Below are positions 5,059-29,388 of a DNA stretch of 64,000 bases, in pieces. The DNA lies in the NCBI GenBank assembly GCA_028716845.1, contig JAQUPF010000010.1, positions 1 to 64,000 on the forward strand, written 5' to 3'. The position numbers and the translations under genes were made by a program. The notes under the pieces are model-generated. The model searched no databases and had not been told where the DNA came from. It saw only the letters and a list, made by a program, of their open reading frames with translations. The DNA comes from a bacterium. Its GTDB lineage: Bacteria; Auribacterota; Tritonobacteria; UBA1439. The first letter of the stretch is position 1. Each line of letters begins with the position of its first letter.

Positions 5059-5132
5059 GCGGGTGTAGCTCAATGGCAGAGCTCCAGCTTCCCAAGCTGG
5101 CTACGAGGGTTCGATTCCCTTCACCCGCTCCA
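5059..5132 (+). tRNA. tRNA-Gly (anticodon CCC)
   Basis: The acceptor stem GCGGGTG (5059-5065) pairs perfectly with CACCCGC (5122-5128). The discriminator is T and CCA is encoded (5130-5132). The D stem GCTC/GAGC, the anticodon stem CCAGC/GCTGG around the loop TTCCCAA, and a T stem with TTCGATT loop are all present. The anticodon CCC reads GGG glycine codons, which are common in this GC-rich sequence. The tRNA sits 38 bases ahead of gatC and probably shares its transcript. Confidence 0.95.
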
Positions 5133-14011: not shown

Positions 14012-16075
14012 GTGAAGATGCCCATACGCCTCAAGATGCTGCTCAGTTTCATGGCGATGGTGGCCCTCATCGTCGCCCTCATCGTCTTCGCGCTCGTCTC
14101 CTCCCGCATCATGGCCGACGGCGCCCGCCGCCTCATGCACGTCCAGCAGAAGGAGGCGCTCATCGCCGACCTCCAGACGACGGTGGACCGGGCGGTCACC
14201 GCGCTCGGCGGCTACCTCCTCTCGGGGAGGGAGGCCCAGCGCACGACCTTCATCCAGCTCGTCGTCTTCTCCCGGCGGCAGCTCGCCGCCCTCGAGCGGA
14301 CGGCCGCCGCCGACGCGGGGGGCGGCGCGCTCGAGCGGCGGAAGATCGCCGAGCTGCGGGCGGAGATCGACCGGATCGAGGAGAACGCCCGTGAGGTCAT
14401 CCTCCTCGCCGACCGGATCGAGAAGGGGCGCGGCCAGGAGATCGTCCGCGACGTCATCGGGACGGTGAAGTCCGCCCTCGATCGGCGGAAGGCGCCCGAG
14501 GGGGGTGAGCGGACGCCGGGCGACCTCCGCAGCCTCGGGGCCCTCCTCGGCGTGAGCACGCGCGACGCCCAGGAGCGGCTCGAGGAGATCGAGGCGCTCA
14601 GCCGGCTCGTCTCGGAGTCGGAGGCGCGGCTCCGGGAGCTCTCGATGCGCCTCGTCGAGTCGAAGGACCGCGCGCTCGAGATCATCGGCGACATCCGGGA
14701 GCACGCCCAGCGGGAGGGGGTCGTCGCCGTCGAGATCGCCGCGGCGGCGGACGGGCGGGCGTGGAAGTACCTGCTCGTGGGCGCCGTCATCACGCTCGCC
14801 TGCGGCCTCAGCCTCGCCCTCTACCTATCGCGCTCCCTCTCCCGGCCGATCGTGGCGCTCGGGCGCGGGGCCCGCCTCATCGGCGGCGGGGACTTCGACC
14901 ACCGCATCGAGCTCGAGACCGGGGACGAGCTCGAGGACCTCGCCGGGCGGTTCAACGCGATGGCCGCGCGCCTCAAGGAGTCCTACGCCGGCCTCGAGGA
15001 GCGGGTGCGGGAGCGGACGCGCGAGCTCGAGGAGGCCGGCCTGCGGCTCCGCCGCCTCTTCGACGGCATCACCGACGGGATCACGGTCATCGACCGCCGC
15101 CACCGGATCGTCGACTCGAACACCGGCATCGCCTCGATGGCCGGCGCGGACGGCCGCCGGCTCGCCGGGCGGGCCTGCCACGAGGCGTACAACGGGAGCC
15201 CGGAGCCGTGCCCCGGCTGCCCCGCGGCGGACACCTTCAGGAACGGGGCCGCCTCGTCGGGGGAGATCCGCTGGAGCCCGCCCGGCGGGAAGCCCCGGGA
15301 CATGGAGATCTACACCTTCCCCCTCGTCGAGGAGAAGGGGAAGGTGATGCACGTCATCGAGTACGCCAAGGACGTGAGCGACCGGAAGGCGCTCGAGCGG
15401 AAGCTGTTCCAGTCGGCGAAGCTCGCGGGGATCGGGACGCTCGCGGCGGGCGTCGCGCACGAGATCCGGAACCCGCTCGGCATCATGAAGACGTCGGCGG
15501 ACATGATCCGGCGCGGCAGCAGGGACGGCGAGCAGAACTTCGAGCTCGCCCAGTTCATGGTCGAGGAGATCGAGCGGCTCAACCGCGTCGTCACCCGCCT
15601 CCTCGAGTTCGCGCGGCCCTCCGCGCCGAAGGTCGAGTCGTGCGATCTCCACGAGATCCTCGACCGCGCGCTCGCCCTCGTCGGCCCGCAGCACCGCCTC
15701 GGGAACCTCGAGATCGCGCGCGACTACGCCGCCGGCCTGCCGCACATACCGGGGGACCGGGAGCAGCTCTGCCAGCTCTTCCTGAACCTCATCATCAACG
15801 CCGCGCAGGCGATGCCGGGGGGCGGGCGGCTGACCCTCTCGACCGGCTTCGAGGGGACGGGCGCCGTCCGGGTCGGCGTCGCCGACACGGGGGAGGGGAT
15901 CGACGAGAAGATCCTGGACAACATCTTCGACCCGTTCTTCAGCACGAAGGAGGACGGGTCGGGCCTCGGCCTCGCCATCGCGTTCAGGATCGCGGAGGCC
16001 CACCGGGGGCGGATCGAGGCGAGGAGCACGCGGGGGGAGGGGACGGTGTTCACCGTCATCCTCCCGGCCGCATAG
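14012..16075 (+). CDS. Membrane sensor histidine kinase with HAMP and Cys-PAS domains
   Basis: This 687-residue sensor pairs with the sigma54 activator encoded next. Its order is TM1 (about 8-30), a long helical sensor region (31-248), TM2 (252-272), HAMP (273-325), a coiled coil, PAS (about 345-455), then HisKA and HATPase. The phospho-acceptor is His483 in VAHEIRNPLG. The ATP-binding boxes are NLIINAAQAM, DTGEGI, FDPFFSTK and GSGLGLAI. The PAS domain carries Cys389, Cys400 and Cys403 (CHEAYNG...CPGC), a pattern that may bind a metal or cofactor or sense redox state. The start may be GTG 14012 or ATG 14018. The signal is unknown. Confidence 0.93.
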   Translation: MKMPIRLKMLLSFMAMVALIVALIVFALVSSRIMADGARRLMHVQQKEALIADLQTTVDRAVTALGGYLLSGREAQRTTFIQLVVFSRRQLAALERTAAADAGGGALERRKIAELRAEIDRIEENAREVILLADRIEKGRGQEIVRDVIGTVKSALDRRKAPEGGERTPGDLRSLGALLGVSTRDAQERLEEIEALSRLVSESEARLRELSMRLVESKDRALEIIGDIREHAQREGVVAVEIAAAADGRAWKYLLVGAVITLACGLSLALYLSRSLSRPIVALGRGARLIGGGDFDHRIELETGDELEDLAGRFNAMAARLKESYAGLEERVRERTRELEEAGLRLRRLFDGITDGITVIDRRHRIVDSNTGIASMAGADGRRLAGRACHEAYNGSPEPCPGCPAADTFRNGAASSGEIRWSPPGGKPRDMEIYTFPLVEEKGKVMHVIEYAKDVSDRKALERKLFQSAKLAGIGTLAAGVAHEIRNPLGIMKTSADMIRRGSRDGEQNFELAQFMVEEIERLNRVVTRLLEFARPSAPKVESCDLHEILDRALALVGPQHRLGNLEIARDYAAGLPHIPGDREQLCQLFLNLIINAAQAMPGGGRLTLSTGFEGTGAVRVGVADTGEGIDEKILDNIFDPFFSTKEDGSGLGLAIAFRIAEAHRGRIEARSTRGEGTVFTVILPAA

Positions 16076-16086
16076 GGGGGCGGGAG

Positions 16087-17454
16087 ATGAAGAAGCGGAT
16101 ACTCGTTGTGGAGGACGATCCGAAGATGGCCCGGATCCTCCAGATCGCCCTCGAGCAGATCGGCTACGAGCCGCTCGCGGCGGGCGCCGCCGAGGGGGCG
16201 CTCGAGATCCTCGGGCGGAAACGGGTGGACCTCGTCCTCACCGATCTCCACCTGCCGGGGGGGATGAGCGGGATCGACCTCCTCGTGGAGATGCGGCACC
16301 GGGAGCTCGCCACGCCGGTGGTCATCATCACCGCCTACGGGACGATCGACAGCGCCGTCGAGGCGATGAGGGCCGGGGCGAGCGACTTCATCCTCAAGCC
16401 GTTCGACGTCGGCAGCATCGAGGTCGTCATCTCCCGTGTCCTCGAGTTCGAGAAGTACAAGCGCGAGAACGTGTTCCTCCGGGAGGAGCTCACCCGGCAG
16501 GGGGAGGAGATCATCGGCCAGAGCCCGAAGATGCGCGAGATCTACGCCCTCGTCGAGCGGATCGCGCCGACGGACGTCTCGGTCCTCATCAGGGGGGAGA
16601 CGGGGACGGGGAAGGAGATCATCGCCCGGACGATCCACGAGAAGAGCCCTCGGCGGGAGAAGCTCTTCGTCGCCGTCAACTGCGCCGCCATCCCCACGGC
16701 CCTCCTCGAGAGCGAGCTGTTCGGCCACGTGAAGGGGGCGTTCACGGGGGCGAACGTGGAGCGGACCGGCAGGTTCGAGAAGGCCGACGGCGGGAGCATC
16801 TTCTTCGACGAGATCGGCGACATGGAGCCGGTCCTCCAGGCGAAGATCCTCCGGGTGCTCCAGGAGAAGGAGTTCGAGAAGGTGGGGAGCACCGAGACGA
16901 TCAGCGTGAACGTCCGCCTCATCACCGCGACGAACCGCGACCTGGCCAGGATGATCGGCGAGGGGACCTTCCGCAAGGACCTCTACTACCGGCTGAACGT
17001 CGTCGACATCGTCGTCCCGCCGCTCCGGGAGCGCGCCGAGGACATCCCGCTGCTCGCGGAGCATTTCACGAGGAAGTACGGCCGCGAGTGGGGCAAGGAG
17101 GTGCAGCCGCCGACGGAGGAGGTGATCGGGGCGCTCCAGGCCTACCCGTGGCCCGGCAACGTCCGCGAGATGGAGAACGTCATCGAGCGGGCCGTCGCCC
17201 TCTGCACGTCGGGGCAGATCGGCCTCGAGGACCTCCCCCCGGAGATCATCCACGGCGTCCCCGGCGAGCACGCCGCCGGCCCCCCGCCGCCCGAGGAGGG
17301 GCACGATCTCGAGGGATCCGTCGCCGGCCTCGAGCGGGAGATGATCGGGCGGGCGCTCGCGGAGGCGGGCGGGATCAAGGCGCGCGCCGCGCGCCTCCTC
17401 GGCATCAGCGAGAGGAACCTGTGGTACAAGATCAAGAAGTACCGGATTTCCTGA
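16087..17454 (+). CDS. NtrC-family sigma54-dependent response regulator
   Basis: This 455-residue transcription activator lies 11 bases after the kinase gene. The receiver domain has Asp10/Asp11, phospho-acceptor Asp53, Thr82 and Lys104. The AAA+ domain has Walker A GETGTGKE (170-177), the sigma54-contact loop GAFTGA (217-222), Walker B FFDEIGD (about 239-245) and an arginine-finger region. The C-terminal Fis-type helix-turn-helix is ARLLGISERNLWYKIKKYR. The intact GAFTGA loop implies activation of RNA polymerase with sigma54. The targets are not visible; the envelope-type genes downstream are candidates only by neighbourhood. Confidence 0.95.
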   Translation: MKKRILVVEDDPKMARILQIALEQIGYEPLAAGAAEGALEILGRKRVDLVLTDLHLPGGMSGIDLLVEMRHRELATPVVIITAYGTIDSAVEAMRAGASDFILKPFDVGSIEVVISRVLEFEKYKRENVFLREELTRQGEEIIGQSPKMREIYALVERIAPTDVSVLIRGETGTGKEIIARTIHEKSPRREKLFVAVNCAAIPTALLESELFGHVKGAFTGANVERTGRFEKADGGSIFFDEIGDMEPVLQAKILRVLQEKEFEKVGSTETISVNVRLITATNRDLARMIGEGTFRKDLYYRLNVVDIVVPPLRERAEDIPLLAEHFTRKYGREWGKEVQPPTEEVIGALQAYPWPGNVREMENVIERAVALCTSGQIGLEDLPPEIIHGVPGEHAAGPPPPEEGHDLEGSVAGLEREMIGRALAEAGGIKARAARLLGISERNLWYKIKKYRIS

Positions 17455-17476: not shown

Positions 17477-18259
17477 ATGAGACGCCTGGTCGCCGCCGCG
17501 GCGGCCGCCTGCCTGTTCCCGGCCTCCTCCGGGGCGTCGGAGGTGTCGCCGGGCCGTCCCGCGCGCGTGACGCCGCTCTCCGCGGACTACTGGCGGGATC
17601 TCGCCCCGCGCCCCGCCGATCTCTGGGGGGAGACGAGGGAGACGTTCCGGGGGGCGAACCTGGCCCTGATCGCCGCCGCGGCCGGCGCCGCCGGCGGTCT
17701 CGCCTTCCTCGACAACGACATGCAGAAGCCCTGGCGGCGGGGTGAGGAGCTCCTCGGCCACGACATCGCCAAGATCGGCGACGTCTTCGGGAATCCCGGC
17801 GTGCAGGCGGGCGTGATGGCGTTCGCCTACACGCTCGGCCGGTACGCCGGCGACGACACGCTCGCCCGGGCCGGGAAATCCATGGCTGAGACGATGATCT
17901 TCACCTCGCTCACCACGCTCGCCGTGAAGGGCGCCTTCAACAGGAGGCGGCCGGACGGCGACGACCGCCTCGCCTTCCCCTCCTGGCACGCCTCCGCCAC
18001 CTTCGGGAACGCCGCCGTCCTCGCCGAGTACTACGGCTGGAAGGCGGCGGTGCCGGCCTACCTCGCGGCGGCCTTCGTCGCCTGGACCCGCGTCGAGCAG
18101 AACAGGCATTTCGTCTCGGACGTCGTCGCCGGCGCCGCGATCGGCTGCATATACGGCCACGCCGTCTCGCGCTACAATATGCGGGTGCACCCGGCCGTCG
18201 CCGTCGAGCCGGTCCTCATGGAGAACGGCGCCGGCGTGCGGGCGCGGGTGCTGTTCTAG
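17477..18259 (+). CDS. PAP2-family membrane phosphatase
   Basis: The 260-residue protein has an N-terminal signal sequence (about 1-20, ending SSGASE) and a hydrophobic segment near residues 58-78. It carries the three phosphatase motifs of the PAP2/acid phosphatase family: KGAFNRRRP, PSWHAS, and RVEQNRHFVSDVVAG with the catalytic His. Such enzymes dephosphorylate undecaprenyl-PP, phosphatidate or related lipids on the outer face of the membrane. The second motif has Trp where PSGH is usual, a common variant. It lies 22 bases after the sigma54 activator and ahead of the phosphodiesterase cluster. The substrate is unknown. Confidence 0.82.
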   Translation: MRRLVAAAAAACLFPASSGASEVSPGRPARVTPLSADYWRDLAPRPADLWGETRETFRGANLALIAAAAGAAGGLAFLDNDMQKPWRRGEELLGHDIAKIGDVFGNPGVQAGVMAFAYTLGRYAGDDTLARAGKSMAETMIFTSLTTLAVKGAFNRRRPDGDDRLAFPSWHASATFGNAAVLAEYYGWKAAVPAYLAAAFVAWTRVEQNRHFVSDVVAGAAIGCIYGHAVSRYNMRVHPAVAVEPVLMENGAGVRARVLF

Positions 18260-18283
18260 CCCCCGCGGCGGCGTATCGTGTTT

Positions 18284-18379
18284 CCGCCGCGGATGAACGC
18301 GGATCATGAAAGGATACTCACGGATTCTTTCGCTGCGCTATCCGTGATGGTCCGTAATGATCCGTGATCATCCGTGGTC
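18284..18379. repeat. Long imperfect inverted-repeat element, copy B
   Basis: The left arm (18284-18326) and right arm (18340-18379) are imperfect reverse complements over about 38 bases, joined by a short loop. The arms share CACGGAT-like units, for example GCGGATCATGAAAGGA in the left arm and ATCCGTGATCATCCGTGG in the right. The compact palindrome lies between the PAP2 gene and the next promoter. It matches copies A and C. Confidence 0.75.
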
Positions 18380-18381
18380 GA

Positions 18382-18411
18382 TTGGTTCTTTATTAGGTAC
18401 TATTATATAAT
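18382..18411 (+). promoter_or_regulatory. Promoter of the phosphodiesterase cluster, probably leaderless
   Basis: TTGGTT (18382-18387) and TATAAT (18406-18411) are 18 bases apart. The expected start of transcription coincides with the ATG at 18418, so the mRNA may have no leader. The promoter directly abuts repeat copy B. Confidence 0.6.
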
Positions 18412-18417
18412 GGAGTC

Positions 18418-20526
18418 ATGATGGGGAAGAGACGCGGGACGCTGATCGCGCTCCTCGCCGCCGTACTCGCGGCGAGGCCGGACCCGGCGGCCGCCTACAT
18501 CGGGCCGGGGGCGGGGTTCGCCTTCCTCGGCTCGTTCGTCTTCATCCTCGGGGGGCTCCTCTTCGCCCTCGCCGTCCTCCTCACCCTCCCCGCGCGGCTG
18601 CTCGCCCGTCGGATCCGGTCCCGGCGGCGGCGCGCCGCGGCGAAGGTCGGGAGGGTCGTCATCGTCGGTTTCGACGGGATGGATCCCGAGCTCGCCGAGG
18701 CGTTCATGGCGGAGGGGAAGCTGCCGAACCTGGCGCGCCTTGCCCGCGACGGCTCCTACGCCCGCCTCGGGACGACCAACCCCCCGATTTCCCCGGTCGC
18801 CTGGTCGACGTTCATGACCGGATCGGATCCCGGCAAGCACGCGATATTCGACTTCCTCCGGCGCGAGCCCGGCGGCTACCTCCCCGGCCTCTCCTCGGCG
18901 GATATCCGGCCGCCCCGGCGGTCGATCCGGCTCGGCCCCTACCGGATCCCGATCGGCAAGCCGCGCATCCGGATGCTCCGCAGGGGCGTGCCGTTCTGGA
19001 AGACGCTCGGCGAGCACGGCGTGCCGGCGGCCGTCCTCAAGGTCCCGATCACCTTCCCGCCGGAGCGGTTCCGCGGCCTGCTCCTGAGCGGCCTCTGCAC
19101 GCCCGACCTGAAGGGCTCCCAGGGGACCTTCGCCTTCTACACGAACGGCGACCGCGGCCGGAACGTGCGCACCGGCGGCTACGCCGTCCGCCTCGAGGGG
19201 CCGGGGCCGGTCTTCGAGACCGCCGTGAGCGGGCCGAGGAACCCGTTCCGGGACGACGGGGACCTGTCGATCCCGATGCGGATCACGGTCGACGCCGCCC
19301 GCCGCTCCGCCCGCCTCCGCATCGGCGCCGAGACGTTCGAGATCGCGGAGGGGGAGCTGTCGGACTGGATACCGCTCACCTTCAGGGCCCCGTTCGGCGT
19401 GAAGGTGCGGGGGATCGCGCAGGCGTACCTGCGGAGCGCCGCCCCCGCCGTCGAGCTCTACCTCTCGCCGGTCCAGATCGACCCCGAGCGGCCCTCCCTC
19501 CCCGTCTCCCACCCCGTCGCCTACTCGGTCTACCTCGCGAAGGTCCTCGGCCCCTTCGCGACCCTCGGCCTCCCGCAGGACACCTGGGCGCTCAACGAGG
19601 GGGTGCTCACCGACGAGGCGTTCCTCGAGCAGGCGTACCGCATCCACGACTGGCTCGAGGCGGCGTTCTTCCACACGCTCGCCCAGGTGCGGGAGGGGCT
19701 CGTCTGCTGCGTCTTCGACACGACGGACGTCATCCAGCACGAGTTCTGGCGGTACATCGCCCCCGGCCACCCCGCCCTTCGCGGCGGCGGCGCGTCGGGG
19801 GGGGGCGTCATCGAGGACCTCTACCGCCGGATGGACGCCCTCGTGGGGCGGCTGCGGGAGCGGCTCGGGCCCCGCGACCTCCTCCTCATCCTCTCCGACC
19901 ACGGCTTCAAGCTCTTCTCGCGCGGCTTCAACCTCAACAGCTGGCTCGTCAGGAACGGCTACCTCGTCCTCCGGGACGGCGCCGCCGTCTGCGGCGAATG
20001 GTTCGAGGGGGTCGACTGGTCGCGGACGCGCGCGTACGCCCTCGGCCTCGCGGGGCTCTTCCTCAACCGGCGCGGGCGGGAACCGCGGGGGATCGTGGAG
20101 CGGGGAGACGCGGCGGCGCTGAAGGCCGAGCTCTCGGGGAAGCTCGCGGGGCTCGTCGACGGGGAGAAGGGCGCGACGGCGATCGCCGCCGTCTACGACG
20201 CGGCCGAGATCTACAGCGGCCCCTACGCGGCGGAGGGGCCGGACCTCATCATCGGCTACGCGCCCGGCTGGCGGGTCTCGTGGGAGTCGGTGACCGGCCG
20301 GGCGACGGAGGAGATCTTCATCGACAACGAGAAGGCCTGGAGCGCCGACCACTGCATCGACCACCGGTTCGTGCCGGGGGTCTTCTTCTGCAGCGGGAGG
20401 ATCGCCTCGTCGTCGCCGCACCTGCGGGACATCGCGCCGACCGTCCTCGACCTGTTCGGCGTCGCCCCGCCGGCCTCCATGGACGGCGCCCCCCTCGGCG
20501 TCGCGGCGGCGGAGGGGCGGCCATGA
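18418..20526 (+). CDS. Membrane-anchored alkaline-phosphatase-superfamily phosphodiesterase 1
   Basis: This 702-residue protein belongs to the type I phosphodiesterase/nucleotide pyrophosphatase clan. Metal-binding Asp lies in VGFDGMDP (residues 85-90). By comparison with NPP enzymes the likely nucleophile is Ser125 in PPISPVAWS, and LILSDHGF supplies further ligands. It has an N-terminal hydrophobic segment (8-20), the motif AYIGPGAG, a TM helix (about 33-57) and then an Arg-rich stretch (60-72). By the positive-inside rule the catalytic domain would face the cytoplasm. It is clearly paralogous to the next gene (LPQDTWALNEG against MPEDTKALTNG). The start may be ATG 18418 or 18421. The substrate is unknown. 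Confidence 0.85.
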   Translation: MMGKRRGTLIALLAAVLAARPDPAAAYIGPGAGFAFLGSFVFILGGLLFALAVLLTLPARLLARRIRSRRRRAAAKVGRVVIVGFDGMDPELAEAFMAEGKLPNLARLARDGSYARLGTTNPPISPVAWSTFMTGSDPGKHAIFDFLRREPGGYLPGLSSADIRPPRRSIRLGPYRIPIGKPRIRMLRRGVPFWKTLGEHGVPAAVLKVPITFPPERFRGLLLSGLCTPDLKGSQGTFAFYTNGDRGRNVRTGGYAVRLEGPGPVFETAVSGPRNPFRDDGDLSIPMRITVDAARRSARLRIGAETFEIAEGELSDWIPLTFRAPFGVKVRGIAQAYLRSAAPAVELYLSPVQIDPERPSLPVSHPVAYSVYLAKVLGPFATLGLPQDTWALNEGVLTDEAFLEQAYRIHDWLEAAFFHTLAQVREGLVCCVFDTTDVIQHEFWRYIAPGHPALRGGGASGGGVIEDLYRRMDALVGRLRERLGPRDLLLILSDHGFKLFSRGFNLNSWLVRNGYLVLRDGAAVCGEWFEGVDWSRTRAYALGLAGLFLNRRGREPRGIVERGDAAALKAELSGKLAGLVDGEKGATAIAAVYDAAEIYSGPYAAEGPDLIIGYAPGWRVSWESVTGRATEEIFIDNEKAWSADHCIDHRFVPGVFFCSGRIASSSPHLRDIAPTVLDLFGVAPPASMDGAPLGVAAAEGRP

Positions 20527-22535
20527 GGAGATCGCTCGCCCTCCTGCTCATCCTCGCGGTCCTCGCCCCGGCGGGCTGCCGGCGCGGGGGCCGCTGGACC
20601 GGCGACCGGAAGGTCATCGTCCTCGCCTTCGACGGCATGGACCCGAGGATCGTCCGCGGGATGTTCGCCGAGGGGAAGCTGCCCAACCTCAGGGCGCTCG
20701 CCGAGCGGGGGGATTTCAGGGACCTCTGGTCGAGCGTCCCGCCCCAGAGTCCCGTCGCGTGGGCGAACTTCATCACGGGAACGAACCCCGGCGGCCACGC
20801 CATATTCGACTTCATCCATCGCGACCCGAGGACCTACCTCCCGTTCCTCTCGACCTCCGAGACGGTGCCGCCGCGGCGGACGCTCGCCGTCGGCGAGTAC
20901 ATCCTGCCCCTCTCCCGCGGCGCGGTCGTCCTCCGGCGGGAGGGGAAGGCGTTCTGGGAATACCTCGCCGAGCGCGGGGTGCCCGCGACCGTCTTCAGGA
21001 TCCCGTCCAACTTCCCGCCCGTCGCCGGCGCGGGGGAGGCCGTCTCCGGCATGGGGACGCCCGACATCGTGGGGAGTTACGGCATCTATCAGTATTTCAC
21101 GACCGACCCGTCCGACATCCCGAAGGACCCGTCCGGCGGCGAGTTCACGGTCGTCGGCCTCGGCGGGGGAGTCGTCCGCTCCCGCATCGGGGGGCCGCCG
21201 GACGCCCTCCGGAAGGGCGCCCCGAGGATGACGGTGGATTTCACGGCGCGGGTGGACCGGGAGAGCCGCGCGGCGCGGATCGACGTGGCCGGCGAGAGCG
21301 TGCTCCTCGCCCAGGGCGAGTGGAGCGACTGGGTCACGCTCCGGTTCCGCGGCGCCCCGTTCGCCGGCACCGTCTCGGGGATCTGCCGGCTGTACCTGAA
21401 GGAGGCCTCGCCGCACTTCCGCCTCTACGTGAGCCCGATCAACATCGACCCGCGGCGCCCCGCCCTCCCGATCGACGCCCCCGCCGGCTACGCGCGGCGG
21501 ATCGCCGACGAGGCGGGCCTCTTCTACACGCAGGGGATGCCGGAGGACACCAAGGCCCTGACGAACGGGACCTTCACGACGGACGAGTTCTACGTCCAGG
21601 CGCGCATGGTCCATGACGAGAGCGACCGCCTCTTCGACCACCTCTACGGGAAGTTCGACCGCGGCCTCTTCTTCTACTACTACTCGAGCTCCGACCTCGG
21701 CACCCACATCTTTTGGCACCTCCGCGACGCGGCGCATCCCGCCCACGACGCCGCGGCCCGCGCGCGGCTCGGCGACGTCATCGAGGAAATCTACGAGCGG
21801 CTCGACGGGGTCGTCGGGAAGGTCCTCGACCGGCTCGACGACGCCACCACCTTCATCGTCATGTCCGATCACGGCTTCGGCCCCTACTACAAGGGGTTCA
21901 GCCTCAACACCTGGCTCCACCGGAACGGCTACCTCGCGCTCAAGGGGGGGGCGTCGACCGGCTCCCTCTTCCAGAACGTGGACTGGTCCCGGACGCGCGC
22001 CTACGCCCTCGGTCTCAATTCCCTCTACGTCAACCTCCGCGGCAGGGAGCGGGAGGGGATCGTCGAGCCGGGGTCGGAGCGGGACGCGCTCGCGCGGGAG
22101 ATAGCGCGGCGGCTCGAGGAGGTGCGGGATCCCGAGAACGGCCTGCCCGTCGTCAGGAGGGCGCACCTCGCAGAGGAGGTCTACAGCGGCGATTTCGCGC
22201 AGCGGGCGCCCGACCTCGTCGTCGGGTACGACTGGGGCTACCGGACCTCGTGGGAGAGCGCCCTCGGCGACGTCACGGCGGACCTCATCAAGGTGTCGGA
22301 CGAGAAGTGGAGCGGCGATCACTGCGGGGCGACGGAGATCGTGCCGGGCGTGCTCTTCGCGAACAAGAGGATCCGCATCGAGCAGCCGCGCCTGTACGAC
22401 ATCACCCCGGCGATCCTCGCCGAGTTCGGGATCGAGCGGCCGGCCGGCATGACGGGGCGCAGCATCTTCGGGGAGGCCCCCGCCGCGCCGGCGAGCGGGC
22501 CGCGGGCGACGATCGGCCCGCTGCCCTATCTCTGA
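20523..22535 (+). CDS. Lipoprotein alkaline-phosphatase-superfamily phosphodiesterase 2
   Basis: This 670-residue paralogue of the preceding gene is coupled to it by ATGA. The signal peptide ends in APAGC with Cys19 as the likely lipidated residue; Pro at -3 is not ideal for a lipobox. Core motifs are LAFDGMDP, the PPQSPVAWANFITG nucleophile block (Ser), SDHGFGPYYKGFSLNTW, and a C-terminal metal site with WSGDHCG. Extracytoplasmic placement contrasts with paralogue 1. Hydrolysis or transfer on a phospho- or sulfo-ester is inferred from the fold only. The neighbours suggest work on envelope glycans or lipids. Confidence 0.84.
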   Translation: MRRSLALLLILAVLAPAGCRRGGRWTGDRKVIVLAFDGMDPRIVRGMFAEGKLPNLRALAERGDFRDLWSSVPPQSPVAWANFITGTNPGGHAIFDFIHRDPRTYLPFLSTSETVPPRRTLAVGEYILPLSRGAVVLRREGKAFWEYLAERGVPATVFRIPSNFPPVAGAGEAVSGMGTPDIVGSYGIYQYFTTDPSDIPKDPSGGEFTVVGLGGGVVRSRIGGPPDALRKGAPRMTVDFTARVDRESRAARIDVAGESVLLAQGEWSDWVTLRFRGAPFAGTVSGICRLYLKEASPHFRLYVSPINIDPRRPALPIDAPAGYARRIADEAGLFYTQGMPEDTKALTNGTFTTDEFYVQARMVHDESDRLFDHLYGKFDRGLFFYYYSSSDLGTHIFWHLRDAAHPAHDAAARARLGDVIEEIYERLDGVVGKVLDRLDDATTFIVMSDHGFGPYYKGFSLNTWLHRNGYLALKGGASTGSLFQNVDWSRTRAYALGLNSLYVNLRGREREGIVEPGSERDALAREIARRLEEVRDPENGLPVVRRAHLAEEVYSGDFAQRAPDLVVGYDWGYRTSWESALGDVTADLIKVSDEKWSGDHCGATEIVPGVLFANKRIRIEQPRLYDITPAILAEFGIERPAGMTGRSIFGEAPAAPASGPRATIGPLPYL

Positions 22536-22548
22536 GGAGGAGGCGACC

Positions 22549-22734
22549 ATGCCGAAGATCAGGATCGACGGCGATCTCTGGGCCCGGCTCGAGCGGTGCG
22601 CCGCCGGCGCGGGCTACTCGGGGACCGAGGAGTTCATCACGCACCTCCTCGAAAAGACGGTCCGCGACATCGAGCCCGGCGACGACGCCGAGCAGGTGAA
22701 GGAGAAGCTCCGGGGCCTCGGCTACCTGTCCTGA
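22549..22734 (+). CDS. Ribbon-helix-helix-like mini-protein
   Basis: This 61-residue protein has an excellent ribosome site (GAGGAGG at 22534-22540). It starts with a short strand (KIRIDGDLW) followed by two helices (ARLERCAAGAGYS, TEEFITHLLEKTV), which is the Arc/CopG ribbon-helix-helix layout. It ends EKLRGLGYLS; an LR-x-LGY tail is often seen at the C-terminus of alkaline-phosphatase-superfamily and sulfatase proteins. DNA binding is possible, so it could be a local regulator of the cluster. It could equally be a structural partner of the phosphodiesterases. The function is not known. Confidence 0.6.
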   Translation: MPKIRIDGDLWARLERCAAGAGYSGTEEFITHLLEKTVRDIEPGDDAEQVKEKLRGLGYLS

Positions 22735-22755
22735 GGCCGCCGCGGAGAGCACACC

Positions 22756-23562
22756 ATGGCCGGCGCACTGGGCATTCTCACCGCGTTGTTCGACCTGCTG
22801 CTCCTCCCGTTCCGGGGCCTGCCGCCGGCCTGGGGGGTCGGCTTCCTCTCGCTCCTCGCCGCGGCGCTCGTCCTCTGGATCTACGGGAAGGTCTCCGACC
22901 AGCGGGCGATCCGGCGGATCAAGAAGAGGGTCCAGGGGCATTTCCTCGGCATCTACCTGTTCCGCGACGATCCGGCCCAGGTCCTCCGCTCGCTCGCCAG
23001 GGTGTTCGCCGGCTCGTTCCGGTACGTGGGGTACTCGCTCGTTCCGCTCGCCGTCGTCATCGTCCCGCTGCTCCTGGCGTGCGTGCAGATGGAGCTCCGT
23101 TACGGCCGCCGCCCCCTCCTCCCGGGCGAGCGGGTCATCGTCTCCGCCGCCGTCTCCGGGCGGCGGGCCCCCGTCCTCAGGGCCTCCCCCGGGCTGGCGG
23201 TGGAGACCCCCGCCGTTCGGATCGGCGGGGGGGAGTTCGCCTGGAGGGTCCGCGCCGTCGCCGCGGGGGACGGGGCGGTCGAACTCGAGGCGGGCGGCGC
23301 CACGGTCGGCATGGACGTCCCCGTCGGGCCCGGCGCGCGGCGCATCTACCCGGTGCGGTCGAAGGGGTCCCCGCTCCGGGCGCTCCTCTCGCCGGGCCTC
23401 GCGCCGATCGCGGACGGCGCGCCGGTCGAATGGATTCGGGTGCGCTTCCCCTCGGCCTCGGTGCGCCTCTGGCGGATCGACCTCCACTGGAGCATCGCCT
23501 TCTTCCTCCTCGCGATCGTCTTCGGTCTCGCCCTCAAGCCTGTATTCGGCGTTGATTTCTAG
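22756..23562 (+). CDS. Oxa1/EMC3-like integral membrane protein, uncharacterised
   Basis: This 268-residue protein has two hydrophobic segments near the N-terminus (about 5-17 and 24-42), the basic stretch SDQRAIRRIKKRVQ, a TM near residues 95-112, a beta-rich soluble domain (about 118-235) and a last TM ending ALKPVFGVDF. The N-terminal LPPAWGVGFLSLLAAALVLW followed by a DQ and a basic helix recalls the archaeal DUF106/EMC3 branch of the Oxa1 insertase family. I see this by eye and hold it loosely. Its place between the phosphodiesterases and cysDN suggests a membrane scaffold or insertase for that system. Confidence 0.6.
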   Translation: MAGALGILTALFDLLLLPFRGLPPAWGVGFLSLLAAALVLWIYGKVSDQRAIRRIKKRVQGHFLGIYLFRDDPAQVLRSLARVFAGSFRYVGYSLVPLAVVIVPLLLACVQMELRYGRRPLLPGERVIVSAAVSGRRAPVLRASPGLAVETPAVRIGGGEFAWRVRAVAAGDGAVELEAGGATVGMDVPVGPGARRIYPVRSKGSPLRALLSPGLAPIADGAPVEWIRVRFPSASVRLWRIDLHWSIAFFLLAIVFGLALKPVFGVDF

Positions 23563-23581
23563 CCCCGTCCGCTGCTACAAT
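23552..23581 (+). promoter_or_regulatory. Promoter of cysDN
   Basis: TTGATT (23552-23557, overlapping the end of the membrane-protein gene) and TACAAT (23576-23581) are 18 bases apart, with an extended TG before the -10. Transcription should start near 23588. Confidence 0.6.
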
Positions 23582-23615
23582 GCCGCCTCCCGGCGCTGCG
23601 GGGGAGGGAGCGGTG

Positions 23616-24419
23616 ATGGACGAACTGACGGAACTCGAGAGCCGGACGATCTACGTCGTGCGGGAGGCCTACAGCAGGTTCAAGCGGATCGGCATGCTCT
23701 GGTCGATCGGCAAGGACTCCACCTCCCTCCTCTGGATGTGCCGGAAGGCGTTCTTCGGGAAGATCCCGTTCCCCGTCATCCACATCGACACCGGCTACAA
23801 GTTCAGGGAGATCTACGAGTTCCGGGACCGCTACGCCAGGGAGTGGGGCCTCGACCTCATGGTCGCGAGGAACGAGAAGGCGCTCGCGGCCGGGACGGGC
23901 CCGGAGACCGGCAGCAAGCTCGACTGCTGCCACGCGCTCAAGACGCAGGCGCTGATCGATTTCATCGCGGCGCACCGGCTCGACGCCATCCTCCTCGGGA
24001 TACGACGCGACGAGCACGGCATCCGGTCGAAGGAGCGCTATTTCTCGCCCCGGGACGAGCGGTTCCAGTGGGACTACCAGAACCAGCCCCCGGAGCTCTG
24101 GGACCAGTTCAAGTCGAGCACCGAGGGCCACCACCACCTGCGGGTCCACCCGATCCTGCACATGACCGAGCTCGACATCTGGCGCTACGTCGAGCGGGAG
24201 GGGATCCCGATCGTCGACCTCTACTTCGCGAAGAACGGCGCCCGGTACCGGTCGATCGGCTGCGCCTGCTGCTGCTCCACCGTCGAGTCCGAGGCGGACA
24301 CCGTCGACAAGATCATCCATGAAATCGCCACCACAGACGTCTCCGAGCGGGCGGGGAGGGCCCAGGACAAGGAGAACGCCTACACGATGCAGAAACTCCG
24401 GGCGCTCGGCTACATGTAA
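23616..24419 (+). CDS. cysD: Sulfate adenylyltransferase subunit 2 (CysD-like)
   Basis: CysD makes adenosine 5'-phosphosulfate from ATP and sulfate, powered by GTP hydrolysis in CysN. I chose the ATG at 23616, which follows GGGAGGGAG; upstream in-frame codons lie at the promoter. The 267-residue protein has the PP-loop SIGKDS (residues 30-35), HIDTGYKFREIYEFRD, KLDCCHALKTQAL, LLGIRRDEHGIRSKER and FSPRDE. The C-terminus TMQKLRALGYM resembles the usual basic-x-x-GYF end that docks on CysN. One block reads GCACCCSTVES where E. coli has GCWPLTGAVES, which gives an unusual cysteine cluster at 24261-24278. Confidence 0.9.
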   Translation: MDELTELESRTIYVVREAYSRFKRIGMLWSIGKDSTSLLWMCRKAFFGKIPFPVIHIDTGYKFREIYEFRDRYAREWGLDLMVARNEKALAAGTGPETGSKLDCCHALKTQALIDFIAAHRLDAILLGIRRDEHGIRSKERYFSPRDERFQWDYQNQPPELWDQFKSSTEGHHHLRVHPILHMTELDIWRYVEREGIPIVDLYFAKNGARYRSIGCACCCSTVESEADTVDKIIHEIATTDVSERAGRAQDKENAYTMQKLRALGYM

Positions 24420-24426
24420 GACCGCA

Positions 24427-24454
24427 GTTTCTCGTTTCGAGTTTCTCGTTCCAG
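24427..24454 (+). repeat. Short tandem 14-base repeat between cysD and cysN
   Basis: Two near-identical units, GTTTCTCGTTTCGA and GTTTCTCGTTCCAG, stand head to tail. The composition is AT-richer than the flanking genes. The unit recalls the other AT-rich spacer repeats in the window but is not the same sequence. Confidence 0.55.
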
Positions 24455-24478
24455 CCGCCCGGAGAGGGGGGTGACGGC

Positions 24479-25717
24479 ATGGCGAAGCGCGAGAGCATGA
24501 AGATCGTCATCGTGGGGCACGTGGACCACGGCAAGTCCACCCTCATCGGCAGGCTCCTCTACGACACCGGCTCCCTCCCGCCCGACCGGCTCGACGTCAT
24601 CCGCCGGACCTGCGAGGAGATGGGCCGGCCGGTCGAGTTCGCCTTCGTCATGGACCACCTGCAGGAGGAGCGGGAGCGGGGCATCACGATCGACACCGCC
24701 CAGACCTTCTTCCGGACCGCCACGCGGGACTACGTCATCATCGACGCCCCCGGCCACCGGGAGTTCATGAAGAACATGATCACCGGGGCGAGCCAGGCGC
24801 AGACGTCGATCCTCGTCGTGGACGCGCGCGAGGGGATGATGGAGCAGACGAGGCGGCACGCCTACGTCCTCGGGATGCTGAACCTGCGGCGGAACATCCT
24901 CGTCATCAACAAGATGGACCTCGTCGGGTGGAGCGCGGAACGGTTCGAGGAGGTCCGGCGCGAGATCACCGCCTTCCTCCGGCGCCTCGACATCCTCCCC
25001 GCCGCCGCCGTCCCCGTCTCGGGGACGATGGGGGACAACTTCGCCGGCCGCTCGGAGCGGATGCCCTGGTACGGCGGGCCGACCGTCTTCGAGGCGCTCG
25101 ACGCCCTCGAGCGGGACGCGGACATCGCGGCGCTGCCGCTCCGCCTGCCCGTCCAGGACGTCTACGAGCGGGAGGAGGGCCGGATCGTCGCCGGCAGGGT
25201 CGAATCGGGGACGCTCGCCGAGGGGGACGAGCTCCTGCTCCTCCCCGCCGGCAGGGCGGTCCGGGTCGCGCGGATCCTCGAGTTCGGGCGGGAGCGCCGC
25301 GCGGCGGAGGCGGGGGAGAGCGTCGGCATCATCCTGGAGGGGGACGGCGGGGCGGCGCGGGGCGACGTACTGAGCGCGGCGGGCGACCGTCCGCGCGTGG
25401 ACGACGTGCTCGCCGCGAACCTCTTCTGGATGTCCCCGCGCGAGTTCCGCCCGGCCGAGCGGCTCACCTTCAGGGCGAACACGCAGGAGGCGCCCTGCCG
25501 CATCGAGGCGATCAGGCGGCGGATCGACTCATCGACGCTCGAGTGCATCGAGGAGGACGCCGCCGTCCTCCGCGAGACCGAGGTCGGCGAGGTCCGCATC
25601 CGTACCGGGCGGCGGGTGGCGTTCGAGCTCTTCTCCGCCATCCCGGAGATGGGCCGGTTCGTCCTCGAGCGCGACAACGACATCGTCGCCGGCGGGATCA
25701 TCACGCACGGCGCCTGA
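24479..25717 (+). CDS. cysN: Sulfate adenylyltransferase subunit 1 (CysN-like GTPase)
   Basis: This EF-Tu-like GTPase drives CysD. The 412-residue protein has P-loop GHVDHGKST (13-21), the switch region RGITIDTAQ, DAPGH, and NKMD for guanine recognition, followed by two beta-barrel domains. There is no fused APS kinase, and no cysC or cysH lies in the window. The fate of APS (reduction or PAPS-dependent sulfation) is therefore open. The 59-base gap to cysD contains the tandem repeat. Its neighbours are phosphodiesterase-superfamily enzymes, not assimilatory reductases, which suggests sulfate activation for surface modification. Confidence 0.9.
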   Translation: MAKRESMKIVIVGHVDHGKSTLIGRLLYDTGSLPPDRLDVIRRTCEEMGRPVEFAFVMDHLQEERERGITIDTAQTFFRTATRDYVIIDAPGHREFMKNMITGASQAQTSILVVDAREGMMEQTRRHAYVLGMLNLRRNILVINKMDLVGWSAERFEEVRREITAFLRRLDILPAAAVPVSGTMGDNFAGRSERMPWYGGPTVFEALDALERDADIAALPLRLPVQDVYEREEGRIVAGRVESGTLAEGDELLLLPAGRAVRVARILEFGRERRAAEAGESVGIILEGDGGAARGDVLSAAGDRPRVDDVLAANLFWMSPREFRPAERLTFRANTQEAPCRIEAIRRRIDSSTLECIEEDAAVLRETEVGEVRIRTGRRVAFELFSAIPEMGRFVLERDNDIVAGGIITHGA

Positions 25718-25721
25718 CCGC

Positions 25722-25739
25722 GGCGGGGCCGGTCCCGCC
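25722..25739 (+). terminator. GC-rich hairpin after cysN
   Basis: GGCGGG (25722-25727) can pair with CCCGCC (25734-25739) across a six-base loop, just after the cysN stop. No T-run follows, so termination is uncertain. Confidence 0.3.
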
Positions 25740-25762
25740 CCGTCGTCCATGAGGTGTCCCCG

Positions 25763-27049
25763 ATGACAACGGTTCCGCGGGCGGTCATCATCGGCCTCGA
25801 CGGCGTCCCCCACCGGCTCATCGAGCGGTACGCCTCAGACGGGACGATGCCGAACCTCGGGAGAATCCTTTCGAGGGGGACACTCCGGAAGATGGCCTCC
25901 TCCGTCCCGGACGTCTCCTGCGTCGCCTGGAGCACGGTCATCACCGGGAAGAACGCGGGCGAGCACGGCGTCTACGGCTTCATGAACCTCAGGCCCGGCA
26001 CGTACCGGTTCTCGTTCCCCACCTTCGACGACCTGGGGGCGCGCCCCTTCTGGGAGGAGATGCCGGGGCGCCGCGCCGCCGTCATCAACGTCCCCGGCAC
26101 CTACCCGGCGCGGGAGATGAACGGGGCGCTCATCTCCGGCTTCGTCGCCCTCGACCTCGCGAAGGCGACGCACCCGAAGGCCCTCGTCCCGGAACTGGAG
26201 CGGATCGGCTACCGGATCGACGTGGACGCCTCGAAGGGCCACTCGGACATGGACGCCTTCCTCCGCGACCTCGCGGAGGAGACCGAATCGAAGGTGCGGG
26301 CGTACCGGCACCTGTGGGAGCGGGGGCCGTGGGACGTCTTCTTCCTCGTCTTCACGGGGACCGACCGCCTCGGCCATTTCCTCTTCGAGGCGTTCGACGA
26401 CGGGCGGCACCCGTACGCGGCGGCGTTCCGCGCCCACTTCGCGAGGATCGACGAGGTCCTCGGGGAGATCGAGGGGAGGGCCGGCGGCGACGGCCTCTTC
26501 ATGATGCTCTCCGACCACGGCTTCGGCCCGATCGGGCGGGAGGTCAACGTCAACCGCTTCCTCGCGGAGCGGGGATTCCTCCGCGTCGTCGACCCGTCCC
26601 CGGACTCGTTCGAGGGGGTGGGGGAGGGATCGAGGGCGTTCGCGCTCGACCCCTGCCGCGTGTACGTGCACCTCGCCGGCCGCTATCCGAGGGGCCGCGT
26701 GCCTCCCGCCGACCGGGAGCGGGTCGCCGAGGAGGTCGCCGCGGCGTTCGGGGATCTCCGGATCGACGGGAGGCCCGTCGCGCGCCGGATCTGCCGGCGC
26801 GCCGAAACCTTTTCGGGGCCGCACCTCGACGCCGCCCCCGACCTCGTCGTCCTCCCCCACCGCGGCTTCGACCTGAAGGCCCGCCTCGCCGCGCCGCAGC
26901 TCGTCTCGAGGGGCGCCTTCACCGGGGCGCACACGCAGGACGACGCCTTCCTCTTCCTGCGGTCGGGCGCGATCCCGGAATCGGCGATCCCCGCCGCTCC
27001 CTGGGTGGGCGACGTGCGCGGCCTCATCGAGCGGGGAATCGCCCGCTAG
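25763..27049 (+). CDS. Cytosolic alkaline-phosphatase-superfamily phosphodiesterase 3
   Basis: This 428-residue enzyme of the same clan as the two upstream paralogues has no signal peptide or TM segment. The ATG at 25763 is spaced well from GAGG; the GTG at 25754 is the alternative. Motifs are IIGLDGVP, PDVSCVAWSTVITGK (probable Ser nucleophile), FTGTDRLGHFLFEAF, MLSDHGFGP and a C-terminal His in TGAHTQDDAF. It belongs to the subgroup often annotated as nucleotide pyrophosphatase or predicted AP-superfamily phosphohydrolase. It is 45 bases behind cysN and may act on a soluble intermediate of the same pathway. Confidence 0.83.
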   Translation: MTTVPRAVIIGLDGVPHRLIERYASDGTMPNLGRILSRGTLRKMASSVPDVSCVAWSTVITGKNAGEHGVYGFMNLRPGTYRFSFPTFDDLGARPFWEEMPGRRAAVINVPGTYPAREMNGALISGFVALDLAKATHPKALVPELERIGYRIDVDASKGHSDMDAFLRDLAEETESKVRAYRHLWERGPWDVFFLVFTGTDRLGHFLFEAFDDGRHPYAAAFRAHFARIDEVLGEIEGRAGGDGLFMMLSDHGFGPIGREVNVNRFLAERGFLRVVDPSPDSFEGVGEGSRAFALDPCRVYVHLAGRYPRGRVPPADRERVAEEVAAAFGDLRIDGRPVARRICRRAETFSGPHLDAAPDLVVLPHRGFDLKARLAAPQLVSRGAFTGAHTQDDAFLFLRSGAIPESAIPAAPWVGDVRGLIERGIAR

Positions 27050-27109
27050 GGTCAACCGTCCCGCCGGTGCCCGGCCGATCTGCGTGGTAGCGGCCGGGGC
27101 GCAATCTGA

Positions 27110-27115
27110 TACAAT
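27110..27115 (+). promoter_or_regulatory. -10 box before the UDP-sugar dehydrogenase gene
   Basis: TACAAT with an extended TG (CTGATACAAT) lies 39 bases before the ATG. No convincing -35 is seen. Confidence 0.4.
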
Positions 27116-27154
27116 AGCCGCCGTCCGGCACCGTCTCCACGGAAGGAACGCGCG

Positions 27155-28810
27155 ATGAAGAAGAAAGAACCGGTCTATTCCACCAGCCCCTCCGGCGAGC
27201 GGTTCCCCCTCCCCGCCCCGGAGGAGTACGAGAGGGAGTTCGAGCGGGTGCGGGCGCTCGCCGACGCCCAGCGCGCGGCGGGGCGCGAGATCGTCGTCGT
27301 GATGGGGGTCGGCTTCGTCGGCGCGGTGATGGCGGCGATCGTCGCCGACACGACCGGCCCGGAGGGGGAGCCCGCGAAGTTCGTCATCGGGATGCAGCGG
27401 CCGAGCACGAGGAGCTACTGGAAGATCCCGCTCCTCAACCGGGGGCTCTCCCCGGTCGAGGCGGAGGACCCCGAGGTGGCGCCGATGATCCGCCGCTGCG
27501 TCCTCGAGAAGAAGACCCTCACCGCCACCTACGTCTACGACGTCCTCTCCCTCGCCGACGTCGTCGTCGTGGACGTGCAGTGCGACTACGCGAAGCACGC
27601 CCTCGGGAACGTCCGGCACGGCTGGGCGGACATGGCCGCGCTCGAGCAGTCGCTCGAGATCATCGCCGCCCGCATCAGGCCTGAGGCGCTCGTCCTCATC
27701 GAGACGACCGTCCCGCCGGGCACGACGGAGCAGGTGGCGTATCCGATCATGCGGAAGGTGTTCAGGAAGCGGGGGATACAGGCCGACCCGCTCCTCGCGC
27801 ACAGCTACGAGCGCGTCATGCCCGGGCGGGAGTACGTCGCGAGCATCAGGGACTTCTGGCGCGTGTGCAGCGGCATCAGCGAGGAGGCGAAGGCGCGCGT
27901 GGTGAAGTTCCTGGGCGAGGTGCTCAACACGAAAGGGTATCCGCTCACGGTGCTCGACCGGCCGATCGAGTCCGAAACCGCCAAGATCGTCGAGAACAGC
28001 TACCGCGCGGCGATCCTCGCCTTCATGGATGAGTGGTGCCTCTTCGCCGAGCGGAACGGCGTGGACATCATCAAGGTCATCGACGCCGTCCGGGTCCGGC
28101 CGACGCACGGCAACATGCTCTTCCCCGGCCCCGGCGTCGGCGGCTACTGCCTGCCGAAGGACGGCGGCCTCGGCGTGTGGGCCTACCGGCACATCCTGGG
28201 GTTCGAGGACGAGATCTTCAAGATCACCCCCCTCGCGATCGACATCAACGACACCCGCGCCCTCCGCGCGGCCCAGATGACGCGGGACGCGCTGCGGAAC
28301 ATGAACCGGCCCGTCGCCGCCGCCGCCGTCCTCATCCTCGGAGCCTCGTACCGCGAGGACGTGGGCGACACCCGCTACAGCGGCTCCGAGATCATCGCCC
28401 GGCGCCTCACCGAGATGGGCGCCGAGATACGCGTCCACGACCCCTACGTGCGGGAGTGGCCGGAGATCGAGAAGCAGGACACCTATCCGGGCGCGGGGCA
28501 CGGCCGGAAGCAGTTCTTCAGGGGGCAGGACCGGCTGGCCGAGGTCAGGGTCACGCGGGATCTCGGGGAGGCGCTCAGGGGGGCGGACGCCGTGATCCTC
28601 GCCGTCAGGCACCGGGCGTACCTGGGCCTCGAACCCGACCGGGTCGTCGAGGCGATCGGCGAGCCCGCCGCGATCGTGGACTGCTTCGGCATACTCGACG
28701 ACGCGCGGATCCGCCGGTATTTCGAGCTCGGCTGCGAGGTGAAGGGGCTCGGCCGCGGCCACATCCAGCGGATCAAGGACGAGGTCCGCAGGGAGAAGAT
28801 GAGCGGCTGA
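27155..28810 (+). CDS. Nucleotide-sugar (UDP-sugar) dehydrogenase
   Basis: This enzyme of the UDP-glucose / UDP-N-acetylhexosamine dehydrogenase family oxidises a sugar C6-OH to a carboxylate with two NAD. The 551-residue protein is long for the family because about 45 residues precede the NAD motif GVGFVG (51-56). The catalytic Cys332 lies in GPGVGGYCLPKD. ETTVPPGTT, the SYERVMPGREY block and IVENSYRAAILAF support the wider UDP-ManNAc/GlcNAc dehydrogenase branch. GASYREDVGDTRYS starts the C-terminal domain. A good ribosome site (GGAAGGA) is present. The product is probably a uronic acid for a surface glycan. Confidence 0.88.
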   Translation: MKKKEPVYSTSPSGERFPLPAPEEYEREFERVRALADAQRAAGREIVVVMGVGFVGAVMAAIVADTTGPEGEPAKFVIGMQRPSTRSYWKIPLLNRGLSPVEAEDPEVAPMIRRCVLEKKTLTATYVYDVLSLADVVVVDVQCDYAKHALGNVRHGWADMAALEQSLEIIAARIRPEALVLIETTVPPGTTEQVAYPIMRKVFRKRGIQADPLLAHSYERVMPGREYVASIRDFWRVCSGISEEAKARVVKFLGEVLNTKGYPLTVLDRPIESETAKIVENSYRAAILAFMDEWCLFAERNGVDIIKVIDAVRVRPTHGNMLFPGPGVGGYCLPKDGGLGVWAYRHILGFEDEIFKITPLAIDINDTRALRAAQMTRDALRNMNRPVAAAAVLILGASYREDVGDTRYSGSEIIARRLTEMGAEIRVHDPYVREWPEIEKQDTYPGAGHGRKQFFRGQDRLAEVRVTRDLGEALRGADAVILAVRHRAYLGLEPDRVVEAIGEPAAIVDCFGILDDARIRRYFELGCEVKGLGRGHIQRIKDEVRREKMSG

Positions 28811-28821
28811 CGGGGAAGGGC

Positions 28822-29388
28822 GTGAATCGGCTCCACCAGTTCGCCCTGATCGGCTCGACCCTCCTCCTCTCCTGGCTCGGGATGATGGCGGTCCACGAGG
28901 CCGGCCACGTCGCCGCGGCCCGGCTCACCGGCGGCCGCGTCTCCCGCATCGTGCTCCACCCGCTCGCGATCTCCCGCACCGACCTCAGCCGGAACCCGCG
29001 GCCGCTCCCCGTTGCCTGGGGAGGGGCGGTCGCCGGGACGCTCATCCCGCTCGCCGCCTGGGCCGCCGCCCGCGCGGCGGGGCTCGCCTCGGCCTATCTC
29101 CTCAGGTTCTTCGCCGGATTCTGCCTCCTCGTCAACGGCGTCTACCTCGGCGAGGACGCCTTCTTCAGGGCGGGGGACGGGGGTGACCTCATCCGGCACG
29201 GCGCGCCGCCGTGGACGCTCGTCCTCTTCGGCGCGGCGGCGGCGGCGGCGGGAATCGCGCTCCTGAACGGCCTCGGCGGGCGCTTCGGCCTCGCGGGTTC
29301 AGGCGGTGTCGACCGGCGGCACGCCCGCCTCGCCCTCTGCGCGGCGATCGCGGTCACGGTCCTGCTCGCCGCCCTCGATCTCCGCTGA
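28822..29388 (+). CDS. M50-like membrane metalloprotease
   Basis: The GTG start at 28822 follows GGGGAAGGG. The 188-residue protein is largely hydrophobic (about four to five TM segments) with the zinc motif HEAGH at residues 25-29 in the first TM. LLVNGVYLGED near residue 105 may supply the third ligand, as in site-2-protease-type M50 enzymes. It is shorter than typical RseP and has no PDZ domain. The last 90 bases overlap the convergent ATP-grasp gene. Its final TM (ARLALCAAIAVTVLLAALDL) looks real. The substrate is unknown. Confidence 0.6.
   Translation: MNRLHQFALIGSTLLLSWLGMMAVHEAGHVAAARLTGGRVSRIVLHPLAISRTDLSRNPRPLPVAWGGAVAGTLIPLAAWAAARAAGLASAYLLRFFAGFCLLVNGVYLGEDAFFRAGDGGDLIRHGAPPWTLVLFGAAAAAAGIALLNGLGGRFGLAGSGGVDRRHARLALCAAIAVTVLLAALDLR

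Follow-up and report, generated by a model that had tools for sequence, protein, structure and literature searches.

A conserved AP-superfamily and EMC3-like gene block, probably tied to sulfate activation, in Auribacterota and other bacterial phyla

We describe a gene cluster in a 64,000-nucleotide stretch of bacterial DNA (hereafter the window; contig JAQUPF010000010.1 of assembly GCA_028716845.1, positions 1 to 64,000) from the phylum Auribacterota. Among named organisms, the closest relative of its source is Candidatus Tritonobacter lacicola, assigned to Candidatus Auribacterota. The core of the cluster encodes two alkaline phosphatase (AP)-superfamily enzymes (AP1 and AP2), a ribbon-helix-helix (RHH) mini-protein and a membrane protein of the EMC3/Oxa1 superfamily (M268). 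We consider it almost certain that this AP1-AP2-RHH-M268 block represents a genuine system, and it is likely tied in function to sulfate activation, represented in the window by the ATP sulfurylase subunits CysD and CysN and a third AP-superfamily protein (AP3). We propose, at a probability of roughly 0.45, a membrane-tethered module that directs activated sulfate to an envelope-related product, with the AP-superfamily enzymes as candidate transferases or editors and a chemistry that we infer.

The conserved block and its sulfate activation partners

Among 384 sampled genomes, chosen as relatives of the window, M268 is present in 43 (about 1 in 9) from 40 genera. A wider contig scan, with one genome per species, used AP2 as the query since the 13-row M268 alignment was too diverse; it returned at least 569 relatives, and 80 of these loci were read. 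Together with others they make about 100 loci submitted to gene calling and clustering, where, in DNA of 71% GC, shadow frames from the first gene caller were discarded and another caller was used. The core order recurs in nearly all of these loci, which argues that the arrangement is not due to chance; some Acidobacteria place AP1 after M268. According to the labels of metagenome-assembled genomes (MAGs), which may err in single cases, as may binning, carriers besides Auribacterota include Acidobacteriota, Aminicenantes, Nitrospirota, Dadabacteria, Poribacteria, Eisenbacteria, Krumholzibacteria, Sumerlaeota, Planctomycetota, Omnitrophota, Gemmatimonadota, Desulfobacterales and Bacteroidota. 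The gene set keeps the same order in a dozen or more phyla.

Two sets of activation genes accompany this core, in most cases together with an AP3-type enzyme. CysD-CysN-AP3 lies 3' of M268 in the window, in the related drafts G002, G003, G006, G011 and G021 (92-98% complete), and in one Planctomycete. Elsewhere, a run of RHH2-Sat-AP3'-CysC-AP3, headed by a second RHH protein (RHH2), leads into AP1. Because either CysDN or Sat plus CysC adjoins the same core, sulfurylases of two unrelated families have joined the same block. The original prediction that the cluster activates sulfate gains from this replacement, in other phyla, of CysD and CysN by the non-orthologous Sat and CysC. Of the 43 loci, about 15 have activation genes adjoining the core, where a rough estimate that assumes random placement and ignores phylogeny predicts about 0.3. 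Likewise, of the 9 genomes among the 384 in which the RHH2-Sat-AP3'-CysC operon was recognized, 8 also encode M268 (P 1e-7, phylogeny ignored). Placements of both kinds are scattered on the M268 tree, where the Sat/CysC labels take 8 changes and the CysDN labels 4, although branches with good support require no more than 2 and 1. AP3 also adjoins CysDN away from the core (G013, G211, G335), and a sulfotransferase-fold gene lies 3' of M268 in 4 loci (L037, L056, L059, L099) from Scalindua, a Planctomycete and a Bacteroidota MAG.

CysD aligns with the solved ATP sulfurylase CysD 1ZUN (E 1.6e-63), CysN scores 356 bits against TIGR02034 (cut-off 336), and CysDN also matches PRK05253. Against the stricter TIGR02039, CysD reaches 261 bits, under the cut-off of 396.6, and represents a compact variant that also occurs outside the module, as 12 of the 20 genomes that encode it lack M268.

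The cluster spans 17477-29388 and comprises ten co-oriented genes in the order PAP2, AP1, AP2, RHH, M268, CysD, CysN, AP3, UDP-sugar dehydrogenase and M50-like, which upholds the genes as first read and brings their count to ten. Features are as follows:

14012..17454, + strand: histidine kinase and NtrC-type sigma-54 response regulator, directly upstream of the cluster and kept in G002 and G003
17477..18259, + strand: PAP2-family phosphatase, a local addition
18418..20526, + strand: AP1, 702 residues, AP-superfamily PF01663 (profile match, conserved residues)
20523..22535, + strand: AP2, 670 residues, AP-superfamily, lipoprotein-type signal LAPAGC (profile match, conserved residues)
22549..22734, + strand: RHH, 61-residue mini-protein ending KLRGLGYLS (fold model, family match)
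22756..23562, + strand: M268, 268-residue EMC3/Oxa1-superfamily membrane protein (profile match, AlphaFold2 model)
23552..23581, + strand: sigma-70-like promoter match TTGATT-18-TACAAT with extended TG, 5' of cysD
23616..24419, + strand: CysD, compact 267-residue ATP sulfurylase small subunit (alignment to 1ZUN)
24479..25717, + strand: CysN, 412-residue ATP sulfurylase GTPase subunit without a fused kinase for adenosine 5'-phosphosulfate (APS) (TIGR02034)
25763..27049, + strand: AP3, 428-residue AP-superfamily protein, predicted soluble (PF01663, conserved residues)
27155..28810, + strand: UDP-sugar dehydrogenase, a local addition

The AP1 and AP2 reading frames overlap by 4 bases and the gaps from AP2 through RHH, M268, CysD and CysN to AP3 measure 13-59 bases, which suggests that AP1 to AP3 form a single transcription unit. 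The cluster had been credited with two recognizable promoters. Two sigma-70-like matches do occur in 15.6 kb (0.5 expected), one before cysD, where ATG 23616 is a more likely start than 23580, but the other falls within AP3. No sigma-54 promoter match was found in the cluster; the upstream histidine kinase and NtrC-type regulator are possible regulators of it. The concern that the neighbours might vary at random in related genomes does not apply to the core, but does apply to the PAP2 and UDP-sugar dehydrogenase genes, which recur only in G003. The sole RNA gene found in the window is a tRNA-Gly (CCC) at 5059-5132.

Component proteins and a shared tail

All three enzymes match PF01663 (E 3.2e-29 for AP1, 1.5e-29 for AP2 and 7.2e-38 for AP3), and their AP-superfamily identity, claimed from the outset, is reinforced by columns for metal ligands and the Ser nucleophile that are invariant or nearly so. 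Invariant residues are D86, S125, D437, H441, D494, H495 and H645 in AP1, and S76, D391, H395, D449, H450 and H600 in AP2. In AP3, D13, D201, H205 and H390 are invariant, D251 and H252 nearly so, and S/T52 occupies the nucleophile position; the AP3' variant carries Thr there. We take the conserved columns to be the superfamily's metal ligands. By profile and by their two-metal and nucleophile residues, AP1, AP2 and AP3 belong with the type I phosphodiesterase/nucleotide pyrophosphatase (NPP) family, and they share fold family, ligands and Ser/Thr nucleophile with phosphonoacetate hydrolase and Xanthomonas NPP. They differ from solved members in that AP1 and AP2 are about 700 residues long with a large insert, and similarity is mostly limited to the nucleophile region. 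Identity as formylglycine (FGly) sulfatases was considered and rejected: PF01663 is the sole match, with no PF00884 and no C/S-x-P-x-R motif, and the nucleophile motifs QSPVAW, ISPVAW and VSCVAW contain Ser without Arg at the FGly motif position.

The enzymes are predicted to work on different sides of the membrane. AP1 has a signal-like N-terminus, a conserved YIGPGAG motif and one transmembrane (TM) helix followed by a K/R-rich stretch, with a mean net charge after the helix of +3.8 among 63 AP1 proteins. Because this basic stretch comes after the helix, the catalytic domain is predicted to face the cytoplasm. AP2 is predicted to be exported, as a Tat-like, lipobox or hydrophobic N-terminus is present in 70 of 81 AP2 proteins and most of the remaining 11 look start-truncated.

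The Oxa1/EMC3-like character of M268 holds at the level of the family. The M268 profile matches archaeal YidC-like MJ0480/5c8j over positions 4-118 (E 4.6e-10), and EMC3_TMCO1 is matched by 14 of 52 relatives (best 3.8e-7); the window sequence alone has no significant Pfam match. Its AlphaFold2 model (predicted local distance difference test (pLDDT) 95.6, predicted template modelling score 0.87) consists of TM1 (24-46), coiled-coil helices (49-68 and from 73), TM2, an immunoglobulin (Ig)-like beta insert (118-194) and a C-terminal TM helix (245-264), and so follows the superfamily layout of TM1, cytosolic coiled coil, TM2 and TM3. Three TM helices are also described for DUF106 (PMC8887752), and M268 shares with EMC3, archaeal DUF106 (MJ0480) and YidC-Oxa1 the coiled coil between TM1 and TM2. 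It differs from them in its Ig-like domain between TM2 and TM3 and in its fixed operon with AP enzymes. Since a Foldseek search with the whole model returned essentially Ig-like-domain matches, and MJ0480 was not among the matches listed, the assignment rests on profiles and layout. M268 also occurs by itself, with no AP1, AP2 or RHH in reach, in L020 and L023 (G028, G033); these two genomes, which belong to the phylum, have no CysD either.

The RHH assignment has likewise stood. RHH_1 is matched by 19 of 54 relatives of the 61-residue protein, the AlphaFold2 model (pLDDT 91.6) places two RHH helices before a third in the tail, and the leading Foldseek matches are NikR, omega, VapB and other RHH proteins, with weak E-values and probabilities up to 0.94. 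No inverted repeat, as a candidate RHH site, was found upstream of AP1, which is not decisive for DNA binding.

The RHH tail itself is shared. A terminal motif of the LxxLGY[IL] type (LGY tail) ends 83 of 83 RHH proteins, and the module CysC proteins (n=6) continue for about 28 residues beyond the kinase domain and end similarly in LKDLGYI; those APS kinases of the phylum that were read outside the module have no such tail. CysC-like proteins in L188 (6557-6979), L238 (9556-9975) and L232 (14441-14989) and a CysD-like protein in L093 (4571-5146) have degraded nucleotide loops and keep the tail, and L232 also encodes an intact APS kinase without it. As degenerate enzymes retain the tail, it appears to be the tail rather than catalysis that is kept at these loci. 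The CysD end, LRALGYM, was left out of this argument because canonical CysD ends alike in the 1ZUN alignment. Two other placements were seen: in L186 (5900-6966; G002), far from the core, an RHH2 protein adjoins a 267-residue P-loop ATPase ending in an LGY tail, and in some lineages LxxLGY lies on the N-terminal side of AP2 rather than at its C-terminus (L073 81-2219, L222 5557-7611).

Tails on proteins of different function, the superfamily of M268 and the frequent occurrence of the core without sulfate genes would all fit a role in protein biogenesis, with M268 as a dedicated insertase and RHH as an adaptor that deliver AP1 and other LGY-tailed proteins into or across the membrane, and sulfate genes as optional clients. 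The periplasmic Ig-like domain is atypical of insertases, however, and tails also occur on cytosolic CysC, which needs no insertion. We regard this explanation, in which M268 would be a putative insertase by homology, as the least probable of those considered here.

The tail also reaches sulfatase-family proteins. It is found in 13 of 20 such proteins from related genomes versus 6 of 688 neighbours of no named module family, with the motif written slightly differently in these counts, and six encoded by the window genome have exactly LxxLGY[IL][QN] as their terminus (L247, L249, L250, L251, L252). These observations are relevant to catabolic salvage, in which the exported AP2 and sulfatase-like enzymes would remove sulfate or phosphate esters from lipids or glycans, the module would trim fragments of these within the cell, and CysDN would recapture the sulfate. 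Sulfatase-family matches number 9, 4 and 6 in module-bearing genomes of the window's family versus 0, 1 and 2 in module-less sisters, a comparison of six genomes only; the tail is present on most of the window-genome members that were read; and export of AP2 would suit such a pathway. Yet the module's AP enzymes are PF01663 proteins rather than FGly sulfatases, AP1 is predicted to face the cytoplasm, and several modules make 3'-phosphoadenosine 5'-phosphosulfate (PAPS), which degradation does not need. Moreover, the LGY-tailed sulfatase-like proteins, where readable, show Thr at the nucleophile and not a Cys-type FGly site, so that they may not be sulfatases. Salvage is therefore an unlikely account of the module.

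Possible roles of activated sulfate

Sulfate assimilation offers another explanation for CysDN. The window's own genome (G000, 95% complete) has one CysD and neither Sat nor CysC (no APS kinase PF01583 was found in it; CysC is present in Sat-CysC versions of the module), which leaves the window CysDN as its only recognized ATP sulfurylase. The original prediction noted no cysC, cysH or reductase; this holds for the cluster, and in the case of cysC for the whole genome, but another contig carries an operon (G000:C1 27948-32997; L136 7949-12998) of APS-reductase-type CysH (27948-28673), CysP-type permease, CysK and a siroheme sulfite/nitrite-type reductase. No dissimilatory AprA was found above the cut-off. 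Because this operon has no ATP sulfurylase of its own, assimilation in G000 very probably depends on the window CysDN, the very dependence that was to count against a dedicated role. The CysDN genes could then be the organism's assimilatory sulfurylase, set among AP genes incidentally, and the promoter-like match just 5' of cysD fits this explanation.

The five related drafts named above tell against it, as each keeps CysDN in the module and encodes neither CysH nor CysC. Assimilation is thus not the whole explanation: either CysDN has another use in these relatives or the genes were missed in the drafts. The appearance of Sat and CysC in the same neighbourhood in other phyla, and of AP3 beside sulfurylase genes even away from the core, also speaks against an incidental association. 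Assimilation as the sole role of the window genes seems to us improbable.

We return to the proposed sulfate-using inner-membrane module, whose steps might be as follows. CysDN would make APS in the cytoplasm, and elsewhere Sat and CysC would make PAPS. The soluble AP3 and the cytoplasm-facing AP1 would then use or edit the activated group, by sulfuryl or phosphoryl transfer through a Ser/Thr nucleophile; M268 would anchor the assembly or insert AP1; the exported AP2 would act on the product at the outer face; and RHH and the LGY tails would assemble or regulate the module. In the window's organism, the same CysDN would probably also feed APS to the separate APS-reductase operon.

AP-superfamily enzymes act on phosphate esters and sulfate esters alike, and this, together with the precedent of acmG, leads us to guess that AP3 or AP1 may act on APS or PAPS. 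In the ascamycin cluster, acmG, an AP-superfamily "sulfatase", is essential alongside acmA/acmW (CysDN), acmB (CysC) and the sulfotransferase acmK (PMC4257720). As in the module, an AP-superfamily enzyme is needed there in a CysDN and CysC pathway; the ascamycin cluster differs in making a secondary metabolite, and no membrane scaffold, RHH or AP1/AP2 pair appears in the portion of its gene table considered here. A bolder version of our proposal, which we consider rather unlikely, is that AP3-type proteins are a new class of transferases for sulfuryl (or adenylyl-sulfate) groups, with APS or PAPS as direct substrate of their Ser/Thr nucleophile. Together with LGY-tailed partners, which RHH would recruit, and an EMC3-like scaffold, they would constitute a membrane-bound sulfation machine in many phyla.

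Several observations weigh against sulfate transfer as the purpose of the module. Most loci, including those of the well-sampled Aminicenantes and Acidobacteria, have the core without adjacent sulfate genes, so that sulfate may be one input among several. Sulfotransferases were found neither by PF00685 nor by PF13469 in G000, nor by PF00685 in seven related genomes. Finally, the best-known activities of PF01663 enzymes are phosphodiester cleavage and phosphonate hydrolysis.

Clusters for PAPS-dependent sulfation (CysDN/CysC or Sat/CysC with a P-loop sulfotransferase) resemble the module in setting a sulfurylase beside biosynthetic genes, and some module loci likewise add CysC or a sulfotransferase-fold protein. 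Relative to these clusters, the window version stops at APS, with no CysC and no recognized sulfotransferase in the genome, and the conserved partners of the module are AP-superfamily enzymes, an RHH mini-protein and an EMC3-like protein. No literature on this gene combination was found among open-access papers, nor a known system that shares its composition. For this reason, and because G000 has neither the APS kinase nor the sulfotransferase of the known clusters, we call the module new in kind; the initial suggestion of an undescribed system agrees with its fixed core and membrane-linked EMC3-like protein.

Overall, a gene set that has a fixed order in many phyla, occurs in about one ninth of the 384 genomes and is missing from the open-access literature searched suggests a basic process of the envelope or of sulfur metabolism not seen in model organisms. 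The module places an EMC3-type protein in a bacterial operon, links AP-superfamily enzymes with sulfate activation through independent gene associations, and, through its shared C-terminal motif, makes the assembly testable.

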